The notes: generated by a model not told the origin, from the letters alone. DNA of 64,000 nucleotides from a bacterium (GCA_021811185.1 JAJZPL010000002.1:95917-159916); one strand, 5' to 3'. Shown: positions 14,421 through 26,312, counted from the first letter of the stretch. Numbers and translations are program-made.

Positions 14421-14434
14421 CGCGGCCTTTTTTG

Positions 14435-14440
14435 TATAAT
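14435..14440 (+). promoter_or_regulatory. -10 box TATAAT directing a leaderless start
   Basis: Perfect TATAAT with six bases between it and ATG 14447. The expected transcription start coincides with the A of the ATG. No Shine-Dalgarno is present. The promoter lies in the 26-bp gap after the PorV-like gene. Confidence 0.6.
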
Positions 14441-14446
14441 TCAATA

Positions 14447-15376
14447 ATGGATGTCGATGAATATATAAGGCAACGCGCCGCCGCTATAAACGCGGCTCTC
14501 CCGGGTTTTATAACCAGCCTTAAAGGGGCGCAGCCCGCCCTCTCTAAAGCCATGGCCTACCCGCTGGCGGCCGGCGGCAAGCGCCTGCGCCCGCTCCTGA
14601 TGGGCGCCTCTTACGAGATCTTCGGCGGCAGGGCCGCCGACATCCTGCCCGCGGCCTGCGCCATAGAGATGCTGCATACCTATTCGCTCGTTCACGACGA
14701 CCTGCCGGCCATGGACGACGACGACCTGCGCCGAGGCCGCCCCACCAGCCACAAGGTTTACGGCGAGGCCCTGGCCATCCTCTCCGGCGACGCGCTGCTG
14801 ACCGACGCTTTTACCGTCCTGCTTTCCTCGAAGTATCCCGGCGGCGTCAAGCCGGAGCGCGTGCTCCGCGCCGCGGGCATCCTTGCCTCCAGGGCGGGCG
14901 CCCGGGGCATGGTGTCGGGGCAGGCGGCGGACCTGGGAGCCGAGGGCTTTCTCCCGGGGGGGAAGATCCCGGCCGCCCGGAAGAAAGCCGGGCTGAGGCT
15001 GCTTTCCTACATCCACCAGCACAAGACCGCCGACTTGATCACCGCCGCGGTGGAGATGGGCGCGGCCCTGGCCGGCGCCCCGGAAAAAGACTTTAAGGCC
15101 ATGTCCGCCTTCGGGCGCGATCTGGGCCTCTGCTTCCAGGTGGCGGACGACATCCTGGACGTGGTGGGGGATAAGAAGAAACTCGGGAAGAGCGGCAGCG
15201 ACGCGCGCAACCGCAAGCTCACCTACGCCTCCCTGCTGGGCGTGGAGGAAGCCCGCGGCCGGGCGGCGGCGCTGATGCGCCGGGCCCTGGCCGGTCTCGC
15301 CGGGGTAAACGGCGCGGCCGCCCCAAAAGAAGCCCTGGCCGGCCTGGCCGGTTTCGTCTACGGGAGGGAAAGCTGA
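14447..15376 (+). CDS. Polyprenyl diphosphate synthase (IspA/GGPP-type)
   Basis: A 309-aa trans-prenyltransferase that condenses allylic diphosphates with IPP. The first Asp-rich motif is HDDLPAMDDDDLRRG and the second is QVADDILDVVGD, with GGKRLRP binding IPP. Short-chain type (C15-C20) is likely from length and the IspA-like layout, but chain length cannot be fixed by eye. ATG 14447 (MDVDEYIRQ) is preferred over the tracked TTG at 14432, which overlaps the -10 box. The next gene, dxs, starts one base after its stop, joining precursor supply with prenyl elongation. Confidence 0.88.
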   Translation: MDVDEYIRQRAAAINAALPGFITSLKGAQPALSKAMAYPLAAGGKRLRPLLMGASYEIFGGRAADILPAACAIEMLHTYSLVHDDLPAMDDDDLRRGRPTSHKVYGEALAILSGDALLTDAFTVLLSSKYPGGVKPERVLRAAGILASRAGARGMVSGQAADLGAEGFLPGGKIPAARKKAGLRLLSYIHQHKTADLITAAVEMGAALAGAPEKDFKAMSAFGRDLGLCFQVADDILDVVGDKKKLGKSGSDARNRKLTYASLLGVEEARGRAAALMRRALAGLAGVNGAAAPKEALAGLAGFVYGRES

Positions 15377-15377
15377 T

Positions 15378-17261
15378 ATGCCTCTCCTCTCCAATATAAG
15401 AGGTTCGGAAGACATAAAGAAACTTTCCGCGGCGGCCCTGCCGGAACTGGCCGAGGAAGTGCGCCGGCTCATCATAGAGGGCGTCAGCCGCACCGGCGGC
15501 CACCTGGCCTCCAGCCTGGGGGCGGCGGACCTGATCCTGTCGCTGCATTACGTCTTCGACACGCCCCGCGACCGCATAGTTTTCGACACCGGGCACCAGG
15601 CCTACGCCCATAAGATCCTCACCGGGCGGGCCGACAGTTTTCACACCATCCGTACGAAGGGCGGCCTTTCCGGTTTCCTCAAACGCTACGAATCCGAATA
15701 CGACGCCTTCGGCGCCGGGCACGCCTCCACGGCCCTTTCCGCCGCCGCGGGCATGGCCGCGGCCCGCGACCAGGCCGGGGCCTCTTACCGCGTGGTGGCC
15801 GTGGTGGCCGACGGCGCTATGACAGGCGGCATGGCCTGGGAGGCCATGCAGAACGTCGGGCAACTGGGCACGGACCTGCTGGTGGTGCTGAACGACAACC
15901 AGATGTTCATCTCGCAGCGCGTCGGGCGCCTGGGGCGCATCCTCACGAAGCTCCTCACGCTGGGCACGATCCAGAACGCCGAGCGCAAGGCCGAGCTGTT
16001 CCTGAACCGCTTCCAGTTCTGGGGCAAGAACATCCTGCGCGTGGCCAAGCGCGCGCGCGTGCTCTTCTTCCCCGGCATGATCTTCGAGGAAATGGGCTTT
16101 ACCTACTACGGGCCGGTGGACGGTCACAATATAGCCGAGCTGGTGGAAGTGCTGGGCTACGTTAAAAATCTGAAGGGCCCCGTCATGCTGCACGTGGTCA
16201 CCAAAAAAGGCCGCGGCTACGCGCCGGCGGAGACGGCCCCCACCAAATTCCACGGCGCGGCCAGTTTCGACGTGGAAACGGGGATCTCGGCCAAGGCGTC
16301 CGCGCCCGCCGCGCCCTCTTTCACCTCGGTCTTCGGTACGACCCTGGTTAAACTGGCCAGGAAGGACAGCCGGATCTGCGCTATAACCGCGGCCATGCCG
16401 GAGGGGACAGGGCTGGACCTGTTCCGCGACGCTTTTCCCAAGCGGTATTACGACGTCGGCATCGCCGAAGAGCACGCCATCACCTTCGCCGCAGGGCTTG
16501 CCGCGGACGGTATGAAGCCGGTGGCCGCCATCTACTCCTCTTTCATGCAGCGCGCTTTCGATCAGGTACAGCACGACATCTCCCTGCAAAAGCTGCCGGT
16601 GGTGATCGCGATGGACCGCGCCGGCCTGGTGGGGGAGGACGGCCCCACGCACCACGGCGTGTTCGATATTTCCCTTTTCCGGATGCTGCCTGACGTGGTG
16701 GTTATGGCCGCCGCCGACGAGAACGAGCTGCAGCACATGCTGGCTACGGCCTTCGCCTGCGGCAAGCCCGCGCTGCTGCGCTACCCGCGCGGCCGCGGCT
16801 TCGGCGTGCCGATGGACCCCGAACCGGCGGAGCTGCCGCTCGGCAAGGGCCGCGTGCTGCTGCCCGGCAAGGACGTCAATTTTCTGGCCATAGGCAACCG
16901 GGTACACCCGGCCGTTAAGGCCGCCGAACTCCTCCGGGCCTCCGGCATAGACGCCGGCGTGGCCGATATGAGGTTCGTGAAGCCGCTCGATACGGAACTC
17001 ATAAACAAACTGGCCGCCTCCGGGCCGCTGATCACCGTAGAGGATAACGCGCTCGCCGGCGGCTTCGGCTCTGCGGTGCTGGAATACCTTAACGGGTCCG
17101 GCATGGAGACCAGGCTGCTGCGCCTCGGCATTCCGGACGAATACGTCGAGCAGGGCAAGCCCGAAGAGCTTTACGAGGACCTGGGCCTGACCGCGGAAAA
17201 GATGGCCGCGCAGGCCTCGGCGTGGCTCGCGAAAAAAGATCTGCTGAAGACCAACAACTAA
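15378..17261 (+). CDS. dxs: 1-deoxy-D-xylulose-5-phosphate synthase
   Basis: A 627-aa thiamine-diphosphate transketolase-like enzyme that condenses pyruvate and glyceraldehyde-3-phosphate in the first MEP-pathway step. Visible motifs are GGHLASSLGAADLILSLHY, DTGHQAYAHKILTGR, the ThDP/Mg motif ADGAMTGGMAWEAM...LNDNQMFIS, and the catalytic glutamate in GIAEEHAITFAAGLA. RAGLVGEDGPTHHGVFD is the usual C-terminal signature. Length and domain order are normal. A GGAGGGAAAG stretch before the ATG lies inside the end of the prenyl synthase gene, so the two are probably coupled. Confidence 0.95.
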   Translation: MPLLSNIRGSEDIKKLSAAALPELAEEVRRLIIEGVSRTGGHLASSLGAADLILSLHYVFDTPRDRIVFDTGHQAYAHKILTGRADSFHTIRTKGGLSGFLKRYESEYDAFGAGHASTALSAAAGMAAARDQAGASYRVVAVVADGAMTGGMAWEAMQNVGQLGTDLLVVLNDNQMFISQRVGRLGRILTKLLTLGTIQNAERKAELFLNRFQFWGKNILRVAKRARVLFFPGMIFEEMGFTYYGPVDGHNIAELVEVLGYVKNLKGPVMLHVVTKKGRGYAPAETAPTKFHGAASFDVETGISAKASAPAAPSFTSVFGTTLVKLARKDSRICAITAAMPEGTGLDLFRDAFPKRYYDVGIAEEHAITFAAGLAADGMKPVAAIYSSFMQRAFDQVQHDISLQKLPVVIAMDRAGLVGEDGPTHHGVFDISLFRMLPDVVVMAAADENELQHMLATAFACGKPALLRYPRGRGFGVPMDPEPAELPLGKGRVLLPGKDVNFLAIGNRVHPAVKAAELLRASGIDAGVADMRFVKPLDTELINKLAASGPLITVEDNALAGGFGSAVLEYLNGSGMETRLLRLGIPDEYVEQGKPEELYEDLGLTAEKMAAQASAWLAKKDLLKTNN

Positions 17262-17279: not shown

Positions 17280-18143
17280 GTGAAACAGACACAAGAGATG
17301 AGGGAACAGGTTTTAAAATTACGCAGGGCCAAGGCCTACAGGAAAGCCTATACCGACCCGGATTTCCTCAGCAGCGATGAAATGCGCCCCGTGCGCCTGC
17401 AGCTGGAACTGCAGAAACCCGAAATGGCGCTGGCGGCCCACGACGTGAAGGCCACCGTGGTGGTTTTCGGCAGCGCCCGCATCTGGGATAAAGGCCAGTC
17501 CGAGGACAGGTCCGCTGAAATAAGCAAGCTCCTGAAAAAGGACCCCAAAAACCCGCTGCTGGTCAACAAGCTGGCCTCGGCCAGGCGGCTGGAGGCCTCC
17601 GCCAAGTTTTACGAAGTGGCCCGCGATTTCGGCCGGCTGGTTTCCCTGGCCGACGTGCTGCCGGACCGCAAACTGGTGGTGGTCACCGGCGGCGGCCCCG
17701 GCATCATGGAAGCCGCCAACCGCGGCGCCTACGAGGCAGGCGCGAAGACCATCGGCCTGAACATCACGCTCGACATGGAGCAGGGTCCCAACCCTTACGT
17801 CTCCCCCGAGTTCTGCTTCCGCTTCCATTATTTCGCCATCCGCAAGATGCACTTCGTCATGCGGGCGCGCGCGCTGGTGGCGTTCCCCGGCGGCTTCGGC
17901 ACCATGGACGAACTGTTCGAGGTGCTGACGCTGGTGCAGACCGGCAAGAAGCGCCGCCTGCCCATCATCCTGGTCGGCAGGAAATACTGGGACGACGTGG
18001 TCAACTTCGCGAACATGGCCAAGTGGGGCTATATCGCCAAGGAGGACCTGAAGCTGTTCCGCTACGCGGAGACCGGCGCGGAGATCCTGGAGCATATCAC
18101 CGAGTTCTACCGCAAAAACCCCCAGGCCAACGGTAAAAAATGA
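17280..18143 (+). CDS. LOG-family (TIGR00730-like) nucleotide phosphoribohydrolase-like protein
   Basis: A 287-aa Rossmann-fold protein with VVTGGGPGIMEAANRGAYEAG and the LOG signature PGGFGTMDELFEVLTLVQTGK (PGGxGTxxE). LOG proteins release adenine-type bases from nucleoside 5'-monophosphates, and plant and some bacterial members activate prenylated cytokinin nucleotides. The N-terminal 90 residues are extra compared with the short 190-aa LOGs, as in type II forms. It starts with GTG behind AAGGAG (17268-17273), 18 bases after dxs, and its stop overlaps the radical SAM gene. A prenyl-adenine role is suggested by the isoprenoid neighbours but unproven. Confidence 0.85.
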   Translation: MKQTQEMREQVLKLRRAKAYRKAYTDPDFLSSDEMRPVRLQLELQKPEMALAAHDVKATVVVFGSARIWDKGQSEDRSAEISKLLKKDPKNPLLVNKLASARRLEASAKFYEVARDFGRLVSLADVLPDRKLVVVTGGGPGIMEAANRGAYEAGAKTIGLNITLDMEQGPNPYVSPEFCFRFHYFAIRKMHFVMRARALVAFPGGFGTMDELFEVLTLVQTGKKRRLPIILVGRKYWDDVVNFANMAKWGYIAKEDLKLFRYAETGAEILEHITEFYRKNPQANGKK

Positions 18144-19366
18144 AGTCCTTACGGGGAGGCACGGCTGCGGCGCTGGCGGTACTTACCGCCGGCGCCGCGC
18201 TGGGCGCCTCGGCGCTGATCGCGCTTCTCCCTCCGCCTTCCACCTTTTCGCTGCTCTTCCCGCCGCAAAGTCCACATATCAGGGCCGGCCGTTTCGCCGT
18301 GCCGGTCTGCAACGGCGTGCAGTGCCGCCTCTGTCCCTACGAATGTTTCCTGCCCGAGGGCGCGCGCGGGCGCTGCAAGGTGCGCGTCAATTACGGCGGG
18401 CGCATAAAGACGCTGGTCTACGGCCAGCCCGCGGCGGTCAACCTGGACCCGATAGAAAAAAAGCCCGTCTACCATATGTACCCTGGCAGCCTTATTTACT
18501 CCATCGCGGCGCCGGGGTGCAACCTGTCCTGCAAGGCCTGCCAGAACTGGGAGATCTCCCAGATCTACCCCGAGCAGGCCCGGGGCTCCGTGTCCATCCC
18601 TTCCGCGCTGGAGATCCTGCCGGGGCCCGGCGGCAAGCCCTACGCCCGGCTGCGGGCGGCCCGGGTTTCGGAGCTGCCGCCAGCCGACGTGGTGAAGTAC
18701 GCGCTCGCTACCCGGTCCAGGGCCGTCGCCTACACCTATTCCGAGCCGGTGATCTTCTACGAGTACATGTACGACACGGCCGCGCTGGCGCGGAGCAAGG
18801 GGCTTAAGAACGTGATGGTCAGTTCCGGCTATATCAACAAGGAGCCGCTGGACGAGCTGCTGCCGCTGATGGATGTGGTCAAGATAGACCTGAAGGGTTT
18901 TAATGAGAAATTCTACCGCGATTACACCGGGGCCAGGCTGGAACCTGTTAAGCGCACGCTGCTGGAGCTTAAGAAGAAAGGGATGCTCTTCGAGGTGGTG
19001 AACCTGGTGGTGCCCGGGCTTAACGATTCGCCCAAGGACATAGCGGAGCTTTCCTCGTGGGTGAAGGATAACCTTGGGGCGGACACGCCGCTGTTCTTTT
19101 CGCGCTTTACGCCCAATTACCTGCTGTCCGAGCTGCCGCCAACACCCGTGGAAACGCTTACGCTGGCGCGCGCGGAGGCCGTCAGGAAAGGTCTCAAGTA
19201 CGTGTACGTGGGGAACGTGCCCGGCCACGAGGGGGAGAATACTTACTGCCCCAAGTGCGGCCGGGTGCTGATACGCAGGTACGGCTACGCGGTGCTGGAA
19301 GACAGGCTGACGCCTTCGGGCGGCCGCTGTCCCTGGGACGGCACGAAAGTTCCGGGTATCTGGTAG
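18140..19366 (+). CDS. amrS: AmmeMemoRadiSam-system radical SAM enzyme, membrane anchored
   Basis: A 408-aa radical SAM protein. The N-terminal CRLCPYECFLPEGARGRC and the cluster motif CNLSCKACQNWE (Cys127-x3-Cys131-x2-Cys134) match the AmrS family, related to pyruvate-formate-lyase activases. A C-terminal CPKCG...RCPWDG zinc-ribbon-like segment is also present. Unusually, residues 8-31 form a hydrophobic segment after a K/R-bearing start, predicting an N-in anchor with the Fe-S domain outside the cytoplasm. The ATG overlaps the LOG stop by four bases, and the MEMO-AMMECR1 gene follows after 17 bases. The reaction of the system is not established. Confidence 0.88.
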   Translation: MKSLRGGTAAALAVLTAGAALGASALIALLPPPSTFSLLFPPQSPHIRAGRFAVPVCNGVQCRLCPYECFLPEGARGRCKVRVNYGGRIKTLVYGQPAAVNLDPIEKKPVYHMYPGSLIYSIAAPGCNLSCKACQNWEISQIYPEQARGSVSIPSALEILPGPGGKPYARLRAARVSELPPADVVKYALATRSRAVAYTYSEPVIFYEYMYDTAALARSKGLKNVMVSSGYINKEPLDELLPLMDVVKIDLKGFNEKFYRDYTGARLEPVKRTLLELKKKGMLFEVVNLVVPGLNDSPKDIAELSSWVKDNLGADTPLFFSRFTPNYLLSELPPTPVETLTLARAEAVRKGLKYVYVGNVPGHEGENTYCPKCGRVLIRRYGYAVLEDRLTPSGGRCPWDGTKVPGIW

Positions 19367-19383
19367 GGATCGGGAGGGGGATC

Positions 19384-20847
19384 ATGAAAAGAATACTTAT
19401 GGCGCTGGTTCTGGCGGCCCAGGCCGCCGCCGCGGGCGCGCGCGAACCGGCCGTGGCGGGGCAGTTCTATCCCGCGGACAAGGCCGCGCTGGCGGCTTTC
19501 GTGGACGCCGCGCTCGCGGCAAAAAGCACCGCGAAACTCCCTGGCGCGGTGGTGGCCGTGCTGGCGCCCCACGCCGGCTACGAGTTCTCCGGCAGGATGG
19601 CGGGGCTGGCCTACGCGGAGATCGCGGACAGTTACGACACCGTGGTCATTCTAGGCACCGCGCATACCGAGGCGGTGAAAGGCGCGGCGCTGCTGGCCGC
19701 GGATTCTTACGAAACGCCGCTGGGGAAAGTTCCGACCGACAGGAAGCTCGCCGCGGCGCTGCTTAAGGCCAGCCCGCTCTTCGAGGACAGGCCCTCGGCG
19801 CACGCCCGTGAGCACTCCGTAGAGGTGCAGCTGCCTTTCCTTCAGCGCAGGCTTAAGAAGCCTTTTAAGCTGCTCGCGGCCGTGCTGAATACCGGCGACT
19901 TGGCAGACCTGAAGAAGATCGGCGCCGCGCTGGCTTCGGCTCTTAAGGGAAAGAAAGCCCTGCTGGTTATCTCCACCGACTTCTCCCATTACCCGCCGCA
20001 CAGCACGGCTGCCGCCGCCGACGGGGCCATGCTGCTGGCCGTCGAGACCCTGGACCCGGCGCTGCTCTGGTCCGCTTCGAAGATGATCCTGCAGAAGCAG
20101 GAGCCCGGGCTGGAGACCTGCGCCTGCGGCGAGGCCGCGCTGGAAGCCGGCATGGAGGCCGCGCGCCTGCTGGGCGCGGGGTCGTTCGTGCCGTTAAAAC
20201 TTTCCGACTCTTACGCGGAGAACCCGGCGGCCTCGGAAGCCGGAAGGGTCGTGGGCTATCTTTCGGGGGTTTTCGTTAAAGGCGGGCGTCCCGAAGAACT
20301 TAAGCTTTCGGCGGTGCAGAAGACCGCGTTGCTCGCCGAGGCGCGCCGCACGCTGTCGGACGCGTTCGCGAAGAGACCGGCCGATCCCTCTTTGAGCGGC
20401 GACCCGAGGCTTAACCTGCCCGGCGCGGTCTTCGTGACGCTGACCGAGGGCGGGGAACTGCGCGGCTGCGTAGGCACCGTGGAGCCGGCCATGACCCTGC
20501 TGGACGCGGTGCGCTATGGGGCGTTTTCCGCGGCCTTCCGCGACGGGCGCTTCCCGCCGCTGAAGCCCGGCGAACTGGACAAAGTGCGGATAGAAGTTTC
20601 CGTGCTGTCCCCGCTCAAGCCGGTAAAGCCGGACGCTGTAAAGCCTGGCAAGATGGGTATTGTAGCCGTGAACGGAGAAAAGTCCGGGCTTTTCCTGCCT
20701 CAGGTCTGGGAGCAGCTGCCTGGGAAAGACGCGTTCCTGGGCGAACTGTGCTCCCAGAAGGCCGGCCTGCCGCGGGGCTGCTGGAAGGACGGTAAAACGA
20801 AACTCTATTCTTTTACCGTGGACGCTTTTTCCGAAGAGAAAAAATAG
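19384..20847 (+). CDS. AmmeMemoRadiSam protein B-A fusion (MEMO1 + AMMECR1)
   Basis: A 487-aa fusion. ATG 19384 behind GGGAGGGGG is chosen over the tracked upstream start; it gives a signal-peptide-like N-terminus (MKRILMALVLAAQAAAAGA). Residues 22-290 are MEMO-like, with putative metal ligands His63 (APHAGYEFSG), His94 (GTAHTE) and Cys248 (CACGE), matching His49, His81 and Cys244 of human MEMO1. Residues 300-485 are AMMECR1-like (LRGCVGTVEPAMTL, RDGRFPPLKPGEL). The usual three-gene system is therefore two genes here. The C-terminal 35 bases overlap the end of the convergent gene. Activity is unknown; joint action with the radical SAM enzyme is the accepted inference. Confidence 0.88.
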   Translation: MKRILMALVLAAQAAAAGAREPAVAGQFYPADKAALAAFVDAALAAKSTAKLPGAVVAVLAPHAGYEFSGRMAGLAYAEIADSYDTVVILGTAHTEAVKGAALLAADSYETPLGKVPTDRKLAAALLKASPLFEDRPSAHAREHSVEVQLPFLQRRLKKPFKLLAAVLNTGDLADLKKIGAALASALKGKKALLVISTDFSHYPPHSTAAAADGAMLLAVETLDPALLWSASKMILQKQEPGLETCACGEAALEAGMEAARLLGAGSFVPLKLSDSYAENPAASEAGRVVGYLSGVFVKGGRPEELKLSAVQKTALLAEARRTLSDAFAKRPADPSLSGDPRLNLPGAVFVTLTEGGELRGCVGTVEPAMTLLDAVRYGAFSAAFRDGRFPPLKPGELDKVRIEVSVLSPLKPVKPDAVKPGKMGIVAVNGEKSGLFLPQVWEQLPGKDAFLGELCSQKAGLPRGCWKDGKTKLYSFTVDAFSEEKK

Positions 20848-22903
20848 GCCCGCCGGCCGCCCGGCGCCGGCGCAGGGCGACCAGCAGCCCGCCCGCCAGC
20901 GCCGCTCCCGCGGCCGCGCCGGCCAGGTGCAGCGCCCCGCTTATGCCCCAGAGCGGGGCGGAGAAAGCGGCCGTTACCAGCCCGCCCGCGGCCCCGCCGA
21001 CCAGGTCTAGCGCGTAGATCCCGGCAGGGCCGCTCCCGGCGGCCTTTGAAAAGAAAAAACCTGTAAGCGTTCCCGCCGCCGCTATGAAAGCCCATACCCA
21101 GGCGCCGCCCGCTATCATGGCCGGCGCTCCGGCGCAGCCGAAGGCCAGCGCGGCGGCCGCCAGTTCCGCCGCAAGTATGCCCCCGCCGCTTTTCCCGCCC
21201 GCCCAGGCCCCCGCCGCGCCGCCCGCCATGAAGACCGCGAACAGCAGGCCCAGTTCCGGATTAAGCCTGCCCGTGCCCGCCTGGAAGGCCAGCAGCAGCG
21301 AAGTCTCGAAGGCCAGCGCCCAGAACCCCATGAAGAAAGCTTCGCCCGAGCGGTCCTCCGGCGTGAAGCCCAGGAGCCCGGCGACGCGGAAGCCCCCGAG
21401 GACGGCCGCCAGGCCCAGGGCGGCCAGGCCGAGCAGGGCCGGCGGCGAAGCCACCATAGAGAGCCAGGCCCGCCAGAAGCGGAAGTAGGCCAGCGGGTTC
21501 AGGTCGGTGTTGAGCGGCGGGTGTTTAACGCGCGCTATTTCCATTTCCGCCCAGGCTCGCCGGTAAGGGTCCAGCATGAACGGGAACGCCGGCGTTGTTA
21601 CCGTCCGGTTCTTTATCCCGCGTTCGGAATATCTGCGCGCCAGCAGGGGGAGCTCCAGTTTTATCGGCTTCAGCGAGGCCAGCACGGTAAGCCGGCGGCC
21701 CGGCACCAGTTCGATATAGGGGAACACGGCCTTGGCGGAGGCCAGCACGCAGGCCGCGGCGTAGGCGGTCTCCCGCGGCAAGTAGTTCTCCGCGAACGGC
21801 AGCTGGAAGGCCAGGATGCCGCCCGGCGCCAGCATGCCGGCGGCCAGGCGGAAATATTCCAGCGTGAAGGACCTGTTCAGGGCGGCGTTGTCCGGCGAGG
21901 CGTCGGTCTGGAAAATTACGTCGTAAAAGCCGGAACGGCCTTTCAGTTCTCTCGGGTCCAGCGGCAGCAGCGCGCAGGTGCCGTTCCGCGCGCCTGCCCA
22001 GGCGGCGAGCGCGCGCGCCTTGAACCGGTCCGGCTCGGCGATCTCCACCGACGAGGGCCGGTGCTTCAGGACTTCCGGCAGGATAAAGAAAGCCCCGCCG
22101 CCGGTAAGGAGCACGCGGCCGGGGCCGGGCGAGGCCAGCAGCGGGATATGGGCCAGTTCCTCCGGCCCGGTGTCCCCCGCGGAATTCAGCAGCCGCCCGT
22201 CCTCGTAGACGGCGCGCTCCGCTCCGCCGGTGAAAGCGAGCCTGGAGCCCCCGGTAAGCGCTACCCGGGCGGGCCGCGGGGCCGGCGGTTTAAGGGTATA
22301 GCAGAGGGGCGCGGCGGCAACGGCCAGGGCGCAGGCGGCCAGGAGGGCCGCGGCGGCGTACAGCCGTTTTTTCACGGAGCCCGCCTGCGCCGCGTAAAAA
22401 GCTCCTAGCCCCAGCCCGGGCAAAGCCAGCGCGAGCACGGGCTCCAGGGAGGGGAAATAGCGGAAATAGAGAACCGTGAACATCCCGGCCGCGGCGGCGC
22501 CGGCGGCTTCGGCGGCGTAAAAGAAAGCGGGCCTGCCGGCAAGCCCTGCGCCCGCGGCATAGCCGTTGGCTAAGCCGCAGGGCAGGGCCAGCAGCAGCGA
22601 ACCGGCCGCCATGGAGAACAAGCCCGGCTGGGAAAGGCCGCCGGGCAGGGCGGGCGCGAGCCGCGCCAGCAGCAGGTTGGCCGGCGCCAACGCGGCCAGC
22701 AGCAGCGCCGCCGCCGGGAAATTCAGCCGTGCCCCGGCCGTTTTGGCTGCGGCCAGCCTGGCCCCCGCGGCGGTCCACAGCAGCCAGGCCGCCAGCGCCG
22801 CGGCCAGCGAGAGTTCGTGGGCGGAGAACAGCTGCGAGATCTCGCGCACCAGCAGTACCTGCGCCAGCAGCGAATAAAAACCGAACAGCAGGAATATCCC
22901 CAT
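20813..22903 (-). CDS. Polytopic membrane protein with spermidine-synthase-like domain
   Basis: A 696-aa protein. An N-terminal block of about six TM segments (MGIFLLFGFYSLLAQVLLVREISQLF...) precedes a Rossmann domain at about residues 225-420, followed by further TM segments. The Rossmann domain has LLTGGGAFFILPEVLKH, VEIAEPD and FDVIFQTDASPDNAALN-like motifs. This matches the membrane 'spermidine synthase-like' family. The glycine loop is degenerate (GGGAFF) and the aminopropyltransfer site is only partly kept, so true polyamine synthesis is doubtful. ATG 22903 is preferred over the tracked 22936, which overlaps the promoter and the divergent gene. The 3' ends of this gene and MEMO-AMMECR1 overlap by 35 bp. 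Confidence 0.7.
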   Translation of the reverse strand: MGIFLLFGFYSLLAQVLLVREISQLFSAHELSLAAALAAWLLWTAAGARLAAAKTAGARLNFPAAALLLAALAPANLLLARLAPALPGGLSQPGLFSMAAGSLLLALPCGLANGYAAGAGLAGRPAFFYAAEAAGAAAAGMFTVLYFRYFPSLEPVLALALPGLGLGAFYAAQAGSVKKRLYAAAALLAACALAVAAAPLCYTLKPPAPRPARVALTGGSRLAFTGGAERAVYEDGRLLNSAGDTGPEELAHIPLLASPGPGRVLLTGGGAFFILPEVLKHRPSSVEIAEPDRFKARALAAWAGARNGTCALLPLDPRELKGRSGFYDVIFQTDASPDNAALNRSFTLEYFRLAAGMLAPGGILAFQLPFAENYLPRETAYAAACVLASAKAVFPYIELVPGRRLTVLASLKPIKLELPLLARRYSERGIKNRTVTTPAFPFMLDPYRRAWAEMEIARVKHPPLNTDLNPLAYFRFWRAWLSMVASPPALLGLAALGLAAVLGGFRVAGLLGFTPEDRSGEAFFMGFWALAFETSLLLAFQAGTGRLNPELGLLFAVFMAGGAAGAWAGGKSGGGILAAELAAAALAFGCAGAPAMIAGGAWVWAFIAAAGTLTGFFFSKAAGSGPAGIYALDLVGGAAGGLVTAAFSAPLWGISGALHLAGAAAGAALAGGLLVALRRRRAAGGPIFSLRKKRPR

Positions 22904-22912
22904 TGATTTTGA

Positions 22913-22922
22913 TATTATAATA
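22913..22922. promoter_or_regulatory. Shared palindromic -10 element for a divergent gene pair
   Basis: The 10-bp perfect palindrome TATTATAATA is almost all of the 22 bp between the divergent start codons (22903 minus, 22926 plus). It offers a TATTAT or TATAAT box to both strands, 4-10 bases before each ATG. Neither gene has a Shine-Dalgarno sequence. Confidence 0.6.
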
Positions 22923-22925
22923 CAA

Positions 22926-24062
22926 ATGAAAACCACCGGAAGCGTAAAGGAGGGGGCGGCGCCGGCGGCGTTATTTTCCGCGCTGATATTCGCGACCGTC
23001 CTTTTCTTCTCCCGCCTGGTCGTGGCCAGGGAGATCAGCGCCTTTTACGCGCTGGCCTGGGCGCTGTTCTCGGCGGGTATCGGCTTCGCCATCGCGTACA
23101 CGGGCCGCGTTTCTTTTTACCGCCGCATCTTCTTTTCGGTTTCCGCGCTGGCCTTCCTGGCGCATTTCAAGTTGAGCCTGCTGGGCCGGATAGCCCCTTC
23201 CTCCTGCTTCAAGGAAACTCCTTTCTGCCACATAGCCATGGCCCCGTATTTCCTGAACTATCTCTACCAGCAGTACCTGGCCGTGCTGAGCGGAGGGTGG
23301 AAGCTGTGGGGGCCGCTCACGCTGGGCGCGGCCTGGCTTTTTGTTACCCTGGCGCTGGGCCGGGGCTGGTGCGCCTGGGCCTGTTTTTACGGCGGCATCG
23401 ACGACGGGCTTAGCGCGCTGCCGCGCCGGCCGCTGCTCAGGCTCGGGCGCTGGGCGCTGAAGTTCCGGGACCTGCCGGCGGCGCTGCTGGTATTCCTGCT
23501 GCTGGCTTCCTTTGCCTATATGCTGCCGGTCTACTGCCTATGGCTCTGCCCGTTCAAACTGACCGGGGTTTTTATGGACGCCGACGCCGGCACACACCGG
23601 CTTCAGTACGCTTTAATGCTCGCGGCCCTGGCCGCGCTGGTGCTGGGGCCGCTGCTCACTAAAAAAAGGGTATTCTGTTCCTACCTCTGCCCTTTCGCGG
23701 CCTGGCAGGCTTTCTGGGGGCGGCTGAACCCCTTCCGGGTTTCGCTGGACGCCGCCAAATGTTCGGGCTGCCTTAAATGCGCCTCGGTCTGCCCTATGCT
23801 GGCCCTTAAGGCTTCCCCGGAGGGGAAGCCGGAGTTCCTGGCCTACTGCAATCTTTGCGGGGAATGCCTAAGCGCCTGCCCTTCGGGGGGACTGCGGTAC
23901 ACCGTGCTGGGCCGGAACCTTCCCGGGGCCGGGGGCTGGGCGGGGCGGCTGTTCACGGCTGGGTATTTCTACGTTTATTCAGGCTTAACGCTTGGGGCGG
24001 TTTTCGCGTCCCTTTGGGCCCCGGCCGCGCTGCGCGATATTTTCGGGCTGATCAAGTTTTAA
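22926..24062 (+). CDS. Membrane 4Fe-4S ferredoxin-type protein (NapH/NosR-like)
   Basis: A 378-aa protein with about six TM helices. A CxxxC pair lies after TM4 (GWCAWACFYGG) and another in FCSYLCPFAAW. Two [4Fe-4S] ferredoxin motifs near the C-terminus (CSGCLKCASVCP, CNLCGECLSACP) precede a final TM segment. This is the NapH/NosR/CcoG-type arrangement, which moves electrons between the quinone pool or membrane partners and periplasmic or cytoplasmic acceptors. The short zinc-ribbon and SafE-like genes follow in the same direction. The partner enzyme is not visible. The start is probably leaderless. Confidence 0.8.
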   Translation: MKTTGSVKEGAAPAALFSALIFATVLFFSRLVVAREISAFYALAWALFSAGIGFAIAYTGRVSFYRRIFFSVSALAFLAHFKLSLLGRIAPSSCFKETPFCHIAMAPYFLNYLYQQYLAVLSGGWKLWGPLTLGAAWLFVTLALGRGWCAWACFYGGIDDGLSALPRRPLLRLGRWALKFRDLPAALLVFLLLASFAYMLPVYCLWLCPFKLTGVFMDADAGTHRLQYALMLAALAALVLGPLLTKKRVFCSYLCPFAAWQAFWGRLNPFRVSLDAAKCSGCLKCASVCPMLALKASPEGKPEFLAYCNLCGECLSACPSGGLRYTVLGRNLPGAGGWAGRLFTAGYFYVYSGLTLGAVFASLWAPAALRDIFGLIKF

Positions 24063-24077
24063 ATTCAGGGAGGACCA

Positions 24078-24272
24078 ATGAAAGACGGAAAATGGCTGGA
24101 ACCGCGGTACACAAATAAGGACATCTTCGAAAAGGACTACTGCAAGCTGGACCTGAACGGCATGGACGTCAAATGCCCCGGCTGCAAGGATACGGTACCG
24201 CTCAACCGCAAGAACAACTTCGGGAAAGCCGCCGGCTGGTGCAAGCGCTGCAACCGGGCGGTGAACATTTAG
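24078..24272 (+). CDS. Small zinc-ribbon protein
   Basis: A 64-aa protein with two CxxC knuckles, CPGC and CKRC, about 22 residues apart, forming a zinc ribbon. There is no signal peptide or membrane segment. An additional Cys22 is present. It sits between the membrane Fe-S protein and the SafE-like permease, with a strong AGGGAGG ribosome site, so a metal- or redox-handling accessory role is plausible but not shown. I do not recognise a named family. Confidence 0.75.
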   Translation: MKDGKWLEPRYTNKDIFEKDYCKLDLNGMDVKCPGCKDTVPLNRKNNFGKAAGWCKRCNRAVNI

Positions 24273-24283
24273 CCGGTCGAACG

Positions 24284-24898
24284 ATGCCGGCTTTATTTTC
24301 CGAAGGCTTCCTGCTGGGGCTTTCCACGGGCTTTTACTGCCTGGCAGCCTGCCTGCCGCTGCTGGCCCCGTACCTGCTGGCTGAGGGAAAGACAGCCTGG
24401 AGGTTCAACTTCCGGATCTTCCTGGAGTTCATGGGGGGGCGTTTCGGGGCCTATATGCTTTTCGCCCTGCTGGCTTCGCTGGCGGGCAAGGCCGGGCAGG
24501 GGGCCCTTCCGCCAAGGCTTCTCCCCGCCGGCATGCTGTCCTGCGGCCTGGTGATGGTGCTGCTGGCCGCTTTCCGGATCACTTCAGGCCCGGCCGCCTG
24601 CCTGCTTAAGACCGACATTAACCCTTTTTTTCGAAGACTGCCCCTGGCTATGGGGTTCATTACCGGTATAAATATCTGCCCGCCCTTCGCCGCGGGTTTC
24701 CTGCGCCTGATGGAAATGGCCGATGTTCTTAAGGGCCTGGTATACTTCTGCGGTTTCTTCGGGGCTACCTCCCTCTTTATCTCCCCTGTCATGCTGGGCA
24801 CTCCCTGGATAGGCGCCCGGGCTAATGAAATAGGCCGGCTTACCCTGCTCATAGCCGGGCTGTGGTACACTTTCCTGGGCATTAGCGGGCTTATATAG
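24284..24898 (+). CDS. SafE/UreH-like integral membrane protein
   Basis: A 204-aa protein with six predicted TM segments, of the sulfite-exporter TauE/SafE or UreH/DsbD-like transmembrane group. Visible motifs are FLLGLSTGFYCLAACLPLLAPYL with a Cys pair (Cys20, Cys24), and GFITGINICPPF in the second half, the usual Cys-Pro repeat of the fold. ATG 24284 is chosen over the tracked 24173 because the earlier start would run through the zinc-ribbon gene. The paired cysteines fit a thiol/electron carrier in the membrane or a metal transporter. The neighbouring Fe-S protein favours a redox role. Confidence 0.7.
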   Translation: MPALFSEGFLLGLSTGFYCLAACLPLLAPYLLAEGKTAWRFNFRIFLEFMGGRFGAYMLFALLASLAGKAGQGALPPRLLPAGMLSCGLVMVLLAAFRITSGPAACLLKTDINPFFRRLPLAMGFITGINICPPFAAGFLRLMEMADVLKGLVYFCGFFGATSLFISPVMLGTPWIGARANEIGRLTLLIAGLWYTFLGISGLI

Positions 24899-25010: not shown

Positions 25011-26312
25011 ATGAAGAAAATTTTACTCTCTTTTGCTTTACTCGGAACACTTTCCATGTCAGTCCGCGCCGCTGCCGACCAGCCCGCTGACGCCTCCTCT
25101 TTTGACCAGCTGCTCAAGCAGATAACCGTAGAAACTCCCGCCGCCCCCGAACCCGCTTTCAACATAGAGAAGACCGAAGTCCTGCCCGCCGAGGGCCGCT
25201 TCTGGGTAACCGTAAAAGCCGCCGACAAGTACGAGCGCACCCGCCTTCTGGAAGCCGGCATGGACATCGTTGAAATCAAGGGCGACCTGGTCTCAGGTTT
25301 CGCCGGCCAGCACACCATGGACGCTTTGTCGTCCAAGGCCTTCTCCCTGGTGAGCAAGATGACGGTGGAGCAGAAGTACGCCCGCGGCGTCACCAAGGAT
25401 TTCCCGGCCGCGGACGCCGCCTACCATAACTATAAGGAGACCACCGACCTGCTGAACCAGCTGGCCTCCAAGAATTCCGACATCGCCTCCGTGTTCTCGA
25501 TCGGCAAGACCACCGAAGGCCGCGACATCTGGTGCCTGCGCATCAACGCCAGCGCCAAGGGGACCGCTCCCAGTTCCAAGCCCGGCGCCTTCTTCCTGGG
25601 CAACGTGCACGCCCGCGAGCACCTGGCCAACGAAGTGCCGCTGCTGTTCGCGTCCTGGCTGTTCGACCACCGGAACGACGCCGACATCAAGCGGTACATC
25701 TCGACCCTGGACATCTATATCATCCCGATGGGCAACCCCGACGGCGTGGAATACGACATCAAGGGCGGCAAGTACCAGTACTTCCGCAAGAACGCCCGCG
25801 TGAACCCCGACAAGTCCATCGGCGTGGACTTGAACCGCAATTTCGATTCCTGGTGGTGCGAGGCCGGCGCCTCCACCTACCCCGGCGCGGACACTTACTG
25901 CGGCCCCAAGGCCTTCTCCGAGCCCGAGAGCCAGCACCTGAGGGATTTCATGCTGGCGCGCAAGAACCTCAAGACGCACATCAGCTACCACTCCTACGCC
26001 AGCGAGATCCTGTACCCCTGGGGCGGCAACGACGCGGATGTGCCGAACGCCAAGGATAAGGACGCTTTCGTGAAGATGTCCGGCGAGATGGGCAAGCTGA
26101 CCGGCTACACCGCCCGCAAGTCCAGCGACATGTACATAGCCACCGGCGACAGCTGCGACTGGGCCTACGACAAGGGCGGCATCCTGGCCTTCACTTTCGA
26201 GCTGGAAGGCAACGGCTTCTACCCTGGCGCGGGCCTGATCACCAAGACGGTGAACAGCAACATCAAGGCCGCGGTCTACCTGCTGAGCAAGACGGCCAAC
26301 CCTTACAATTAA
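25011..26312 (+). CDS. Secreted M14 zinc carboxypeptidase
   Basis: A 433-aa exported metallocarboxypeptidase. Signal peptide MKKILLSFALLGTLSMSVRA and a propeptide-like segment (residues 25-130) are followed by the catalytic domain. Zinc ligands are visible as GNVHAREH (His200, Glu203) and HISYHSYAS (His327), and the catalytic glutamate as FTFELEG (Glu397). GVDLNRNFDSWW is the substrate-binding Arg/Asn motif. Length and order match the carboxypeptidase A/T group, but the specificity pocket cannot be read by eye. It is transcribed alone, ending in a strong bidirectional hairpin. Confidence 0.92.
   Translation: MKKILLSFALLGTLSMSVRAAADQPADASSFDQLLKQITVETPAAPEPAFNIEKTEVLPAEGRFWVTVKAADKYERTRLLEAGMDIVEIKGDLVSGFAGQHTMDALSSKAFSLVSKMTVEQKYARGVTKDFPAADAAYHNYKETTDLLNQLASKNSDIASVFSIGKTTEGRDIWCLRINASAKGTAPSSKPGAFFLGNVHAREHLANEVPLLFASWLFDHRNDADIKRYISTLDIYIIPMGNPDGVEYDIKGGKYQYFRKNARVNPDKSIGVDLNRNFDSWWCEAGASTYPGADTYCGPKAFSEPESQHLRDFMLARKNLKTHISYHSYASEILYPWGGNDADVPNAKDKDAFVKMSGEMGKLTGYTARKSSDMYIATGDSCDWAYDKGGILAFTFELEGNGFYPGAGLITKTVNSNIKAAVYLLSKTANPYN

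Follow-up and report, generated by a model that had tools for sequence, protein, structure and literature searches.

A putatively extracytoplasmic branch of the AmmeMemoRadiSam system, encoded beside candidate membrane-bound electron carriers

Can a radical S-adenosylmethionine (SAM) enzyme work outside the cytoplasm? This question is raised by a stretch of 64,000 nucleotides from an Elusimicrobiota genome (GCA_021811185.1, JAJZPL010000002.1:95917-159916), referred to below as the window. It codes for an AmmeMemoRadiSam system, consisting of the radical SAM enzyme AmrS and a MEMO-AMMECR1 fusion, and both proteins begin with what appears to be an export leader. AmmeMemoRadiSam is widespread in bacteria; we know of no reaction that has been established for it. 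From sequence, we judge it rather probable that an extracytoplasmic branch of this system exists, in which AmrS, anchored by a transmembrane (TM) segment or exported by the twin-arginine (Tat) or Sec route, and an exported MEMO-AMMECR1 carry out radical chemistry outside, together with membrane partners. Leaders and topologies were called by rules based on hydropathy, charge, motifs and conservation.

AmrS (408 amino acids) is encoded at 18140-19366 on the plus strand. It is assigned by TIGR04337 (327.8 bits, cut-off 220), by the Pfam domain Radical_SAM and by 33 orthologues. Its N-terminus (MKSLRGGTAAALAVLTAGAALGASALIALLPPPSTF) has a basic start, a single uncharged helix and a Pro-rich linker, followed by the first Cys motif. 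The TM segment (residues 10-30; 18167-18229, plus strand) is predicted by the charge rule to be N-in/C-out, and the leader MKSLRGGTAAALAVLTAGAALGASALIALL reaches a 17-residue Kyte-Doolittle hydropathy (KD17) of 2.13. Orthologous loci were collected from 34 related genomes, and leaders are present in all intact orthologues with an assignable start (33/33 AmrS, 34/34 MEMO). For AmrS, KD17 averages 2.27 with a minimum of 1.76; the mean net charge is +1.6 before the helix and 0.0 after it, with an N-in charge bias in 28 of the 33. No charged residue was found in 269 aligned TM cells from 13 orthologues. An earlier note had read a TM segment after a basic start, predicting the Fe-S domain outside, and these values bear it out; the outcome by which that note would have been refuted, homologues that begin only after these hydrophobic stretches, was not seen in the family of the window. 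The AmrS start codon overlaps the stop codon of the upstream LOG-family gene (ATGA), codon changes within the leader have the third-position excess of coding sequence, and the only later in-frame starts nearby are GTG codons at residues 54 and 60, which adjoin the first Cys motif.

The MEMO-AMMECR1 fusion (19384-20847, plus strand) is the exported form. It scores 221.5 bits with TIGR04336 (MEMO, cut-off 26) and 164.2 bits with TIGR04335 (AMMECR1, cut-off 99), and has human MEMO1 (7kq8) and an AMMECR1-family protein (1vaj) as PDB relatives. The mechanically assigned open reading frame (ORF) start (19255) lies upstream of the real one, which is the ATG at 19384. From there, the protein begins with MKRILMALVLAAQAAAAGA, followed by REP. 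This is a cleavable-type signal peptide (19384-19440, plus strand) with a predicted cut between AGA and REP. As a (-3,-1) cleavage site occurs in 33/34 orthologous leaders, the signal-peptide-like start noticed earlier is upheld. The conserved His, Asp and Cys residues of MEMO and the LRGC motif of AMMECR1 are retained in the alignment of the window's family, as are the invariant Cys of AmrS. Thus, all three domains of AmmeMemoRadiSam (TIGR04335, TIGR04336, TIGR04337) are present above curated cut-offs, and MEMO and AMMECR1 are fused as in leaderless systems of other phyla. The window system differs by its export leaders, by an AmrS that belongs to a separate clade with signature residues, and by additional membrane partners.

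A contig profile search and surveys of several groups yielded 274 distinct AmrS, of which 140 (68 exported, 72 leaderless) were placed on a tree. The CX3CX2C cluster motif of radical SAM enzymes (C127, C131, C134; 18518-18541, plus strand, in the window) is retained in every one of the 140 (68/68 and 72/72, respectively). The N- and C-terminal Cys sets (C62, C65, C69, C79, C370, C373, C397) are conserved in at least 96% of the 140; the window clade has Asp (D400) in place of the last C-terminal Cys. Exported AmrS have signature residues that are mostly absent from leaderless ones (A123, P144, M210, N233, P236, R322, W408), so the substrate of this branch may differ. Among solved structures, AmrS matched only pyruvate formate-lyase (PFL)-activating enzyme and no AmrS structure.

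Exported AmrS fall mostly into one large, old clade, with at least seven changes of export state on the tree, and are found in Elusimicrobiota, Omnitrophota, Planctomycetota, Zixibacteria, Chloroflexota and other phyla. TM anchors occur in Elusimicrobiota, Omnitrophota and Goldbacteria, Sec-like leaders in many lineages, and twin-arginine leaders in Brocadia-type Planctomycetota, Zixibacteria, KSB1, Aminicenantes, Altiarchaeales and Chloroflexota; the leader of locus L132 was re-classed as Tat. Clear lipoboxes are present in the MEMO leaders of L117, L126, L130, L140, L180 and L184. That such unrelated leader types (TM anchor, Sec, Tat, MEMO lipobox) occur argues that the location itself is selected. 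Where read, canonical AmrS from Pseudomonadota with scores of roughly 600 bits and above have no leader; the relatives at L118, L123, L098 and L120 score 371-391 bits with TIGR04337. Some AmrS frames open at the first Cys. Selenocysteine was considered as the reason and rejected, because the upstream sequence either has many stops, as ordinary non-coding frames do, or provides a short start of the normal kind.

The two proteins are mostly predicted to be exported together. Among 45 linked and readable AmrS-MEMO pairs from the tree, both partners are exported in 26 and neither in 17, so that 43/45 agree. Both discordant pairs (L284 and L286, from Omnitrophota) combine a leaderless AmrS with a lipoprotein MEMO. 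In these two loci, the main exception to co-export, AmrS lies between an lgt-like gene (assigned by eye) and the lipoprotein MEMO-AMMECR1. In a larger, unfiltered set evaluated by an automatic rule, 108 pairs comprise 53 with both exported, 41 with neither and 14 discordant. Inspection traced nearly all of the other discordant pairs to the ends of contigs, to MEMO-AmrS fusions in one frame (L116, L131), to fragmentary MEMO or to a wrong choice of start, the exceptions being L142 and L308. At L116 and L131 (Atribacterota and a relative), one signal-peptide-bearing frame joins MEMO and AmrS, and a second exported AmrS with MEMO-AMMECR1 is encoded nearby. At L106/L161, AmrS is close to the window clade and leaderless, and MEMO is leaderless, too. 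Genome-wide, 14 of 17 genomes with an exported AmrS code for an exported MEMO-AMMECR1, 12 of them also for a leaderless copy; the other three are assemblies of 0.8-1.2 Mb. Leaderless copies of AmrS and MEMO are also present in many genomes. In the genome of the window (G000), they are found on other contigs (AmrS, C7:80658-81638, L005; MEMO-AMMECR1, C51:835-1662, L340). Because export state changed rarely on the tree, there are only two to three independent contrasts, so that no p-value is given and no significance is claimed.

How could electrons reach an enzyme outside? On most loci with long enough contigs, the gene order is DXS, LOG, AmrS, MEMO-AMMECR1, SpeE-TM (on the opposite strand), NapH-like, Cys4, DsbD-like and M14 peptidase. 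The NapH-like protein (22926-24062, plus strand) resembles NapH/MauN in having TM helices, CxxxCP motifs and two 4Fe-4S ferredoxin motifs. It is far below the cut-offs of that family (TIGR02163, 56.3 versus 213.05 bits; PRK09477, 60.2 versus 234 bits) and differs by a third CxxxC pair and an invariant Cys-His that are predicted to be on the outer side. Foldseek with the structural model gave ferredoxin domains as best matches, none below E 0.001. Fifteen Cys and one His are invariant in 30 sequences. According to the charge rule, C101, H102, C204 and C208 point outward, while C149, C153, C251, C255 and the ferredoxin Cys point inward; helix 102-122 was treated as peripheral, being too weakly hydrophobic (KD15 0.65), and the ligand sides change if it crosses the membrane.

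A second type of electron carrier may be built into AmrS itself. Seven Tat-leader AmrS of the Chloroflexota type (L117, L118, L130, L134, L140, L144, L234) have a CxxCH...CHxxH insert. ResB-like genes are near all five CxxCH loci that were checked (L117, L118, L130, L140, L144), and CcsA-like genes are near four of these (L118, L130, L140, L144). The Chloroflexota-type AmrS agree with c-type cytochromes in having an exported CxxCH with assembly genes nearby. It is likely that these AmrS bind heme, as predicted from their sequences; the segment could possibly be a Zn site.

Between MEMO-AMMECR1 and the NapH-like gene, the minus strand codes for SpeE-TM (20813-22936, likely start 22903), a 14-TM protein with a spermidine-synthase-fold domain. 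It is encoded within 1.5 kb of 19/68 exported versus 0/72 leaderless AmrS, being commoner in longer loci. The AlphaFold2 model from 29 sequences (pLDDT 88, pTM 0.90) has seven TM helices, the domain and another seven TM helices, a layout for which the last long model helix was split in two by hand. In the same sequences, the mean number of Lys and Arg is 3.2, 2.7, 3.0, 3.5, 2.0 and 1.9 in predicted inner loops and 1.0, 1.8, 0.7, 0.8, 0.7 and 0.6 in predicted outer loops. On the modelled topology and the positive-inside rule, the SpeE-like domain is predicted to face outside. Foldseek matches it to the spermidine synthases 1uir (E 6e-11) and 3anx, which establishes the fold. The window copy is not a SpeE by score (27.5 versus 249.55 bits), and canonical motifs are changed: the DSTD-type catalytic motif reads D-L-P-E-P in relatives. 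While the relatives at L120 and L140 pass the cut-off for fused MFS/spermidine synthase (NF037959), the window copy matches SpeE models weakly, has an altered motif, and has a 7+7 TM layout that would place the domain outside. In Omnitrophota, the genes for the NapH-like and DsbD-like proteins, SpeE-TM and AmrS follow one another on the same strand.

The DsbD/CcdA-like membrane protein (24284-24898, plus strand; Pfam DsbD_2, E 3e-10) has three Cys that are invariant in 24 sequences (C19, C23, C132). As in DsbD/CcdA transporters, invariant Cys are located in the first and a later TM helix with Pro nearby; unlike those, the window protein is devoid of a thioredoxin-like domain.

Taken together, the exported branch is probably active outside, with its own electron supply. 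AmrS would bind a [4Fe-4S] cluster and SAM, generate a radical outside and act with MEMO-AMMECR1 on a substrate in the envelope. Electrons may flow through the NapH-like protein, from the cytoplasmic ferredoxin clusters via the inner C149/C153/C251/C255 to the outer C101/H102/C204/C208, or alternatively via the putative c-type heme in the Chloroflexota form of AmrS. The DsbD/CcdA-like protein may keep thiols reduced, and the SpeE-like domain may bind SAM or a SAM-derived nucleoside on the outer face. We give even chances to this complete scheme, with the whole pathway outside, electrons passing through a transmembrane Fe-S wire or the heme of AmrS, and the nucleoside-binding domain on the same face. 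If it is true, the bacterial envelope would have to contain available SAM. The earlier note had raised the objection that SAM and reductants are cytosolic. For the reductants, the Fe-S wire or the heme is a candidate answer; for SAM, the objection stands.

Several points weigh against an active enzyme outside. The location of AmrS and MEMO-AMMECR1 is predicted from sequence, and for co-export there are the two to three independent contrasts given above. Sec-type leaders of AmrS would require Fe-S insertion outside; the Tat forms would solve this problem, because Tat exports folded proteins. In three Omnitrophota loci within the exported clade (L279, L284, L286), AmrS is leaderless, two of them beside a lipoprotein MEMO. 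The SpeE domain of the window clade lacks parts of the canonical motifs, and no SAM exporter was identified in this analysis. None of the radical SAM enzymes described so far is known to act beyond the cytosol.

These points leave room for other explanations. The proteins may be outside and yet do no radical SAM chemistry, with AmrS as a periplasmic Fe-S or metal carrier or an electron-transfer protein and MEMO as its metal-binding partner. No SAM is known from outside the cytoplasm, and the signature residues could mark a changed active site; however, CX3CX2C and other shared motifs are retained in nearly all exported rows, and the fold of the SpeE-like partner binds SAM-type nucleosides, so we consider this unlikely. 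It is also conceivable that the leaders merely tether the proteins to the membrane, AmrS having an N-out/C-in anchor and the catalytic domains being cytoplasmic. This would fit the cytosolic supply of SAM and low-potential reductant and the three leaderless Omnitrophota homologues, and for a lone TM helix either orientation is possible in principle. The N-in charge bias, the cleavable-type signal peptides or lipoboxes of MEMO, the Tat motifs of many AmrS, the CxxCH beside ResB/CcsA genes and the SpeE-TM domain predicted outside all speak against it, which makes a mere tether quite unlikely. That the leaders are annotation artefacts, resulting from wrong starts in GC-rich metagenome-assembled sequence, is hardly credible. 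Automatic start choice is ambiguous in a few loci, and the signal-peptide calls for L254 and L271, from leaderless clades, are false starts. For the window AmrS, an artefact is rejected on the basis of the 33/33 orthologues, the uncharged hydrophobic columns, the third-position excess and the ATGA overlap.

The LOG-family (lysine decarboxylase-like) gene (17280-18143, plus strand; TIGR00730, 107 bits) is syntenic, but probably does not belong to the AmmeMemoRadiSam system. The gene between those for the NapH-like and DsbD-like proteins, conserved at this place in 25 loci, codes for a 64-residue Cys4 zinc-ribbon-like protein (24078-24272, plus strand), which is below the 80-residue ORF cut-off and weakly matches DUF6510. 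An M14-type carboxypeptidase with a signal peptide (25011-26312; family assigned by eye) adjoins the cluster and is syntenic in the family. Directly upstream (14432-17261, by eye) are genes for a polyprenyl synthase and DXS, the latter syntenic in the window's family, which may indicate an isoprenoid link. Polyprenyl synthase and DXS were not seen by eye around the listed AmrS loci from Omnitrophota, Zixibacteria and Chloroflexota. Burroughs et al. (JBC, 2019) reportedly connected Memo with the modification of nucleotide bases or isoprenoids.

In the literature searched, where five papers name AmmeMemoRadiSam a single time apiece, we found neither an exported, extracellular, periplasmic or secreted form of a radical SAM enzyme or of AmmeMemoRadiSam nor a biochemical study of AmmeMemoRadiSam; since most subscription journals were omitted, this absence is weak evidence of novelty. 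If the branch acts outside, then the envelope would have to deal with SAM, Fe-S clusters and low-potential electrons alike, for which the membrane neighbours are direct candidates. Many genomes carry a cytosolic and an exported set that can be compared. A location outside would also narrow down which reaction MEMO and AMMECR1, both with relatives in humans, carry out, as the substrate of the exported branch would have to be accessible from the periplasm.

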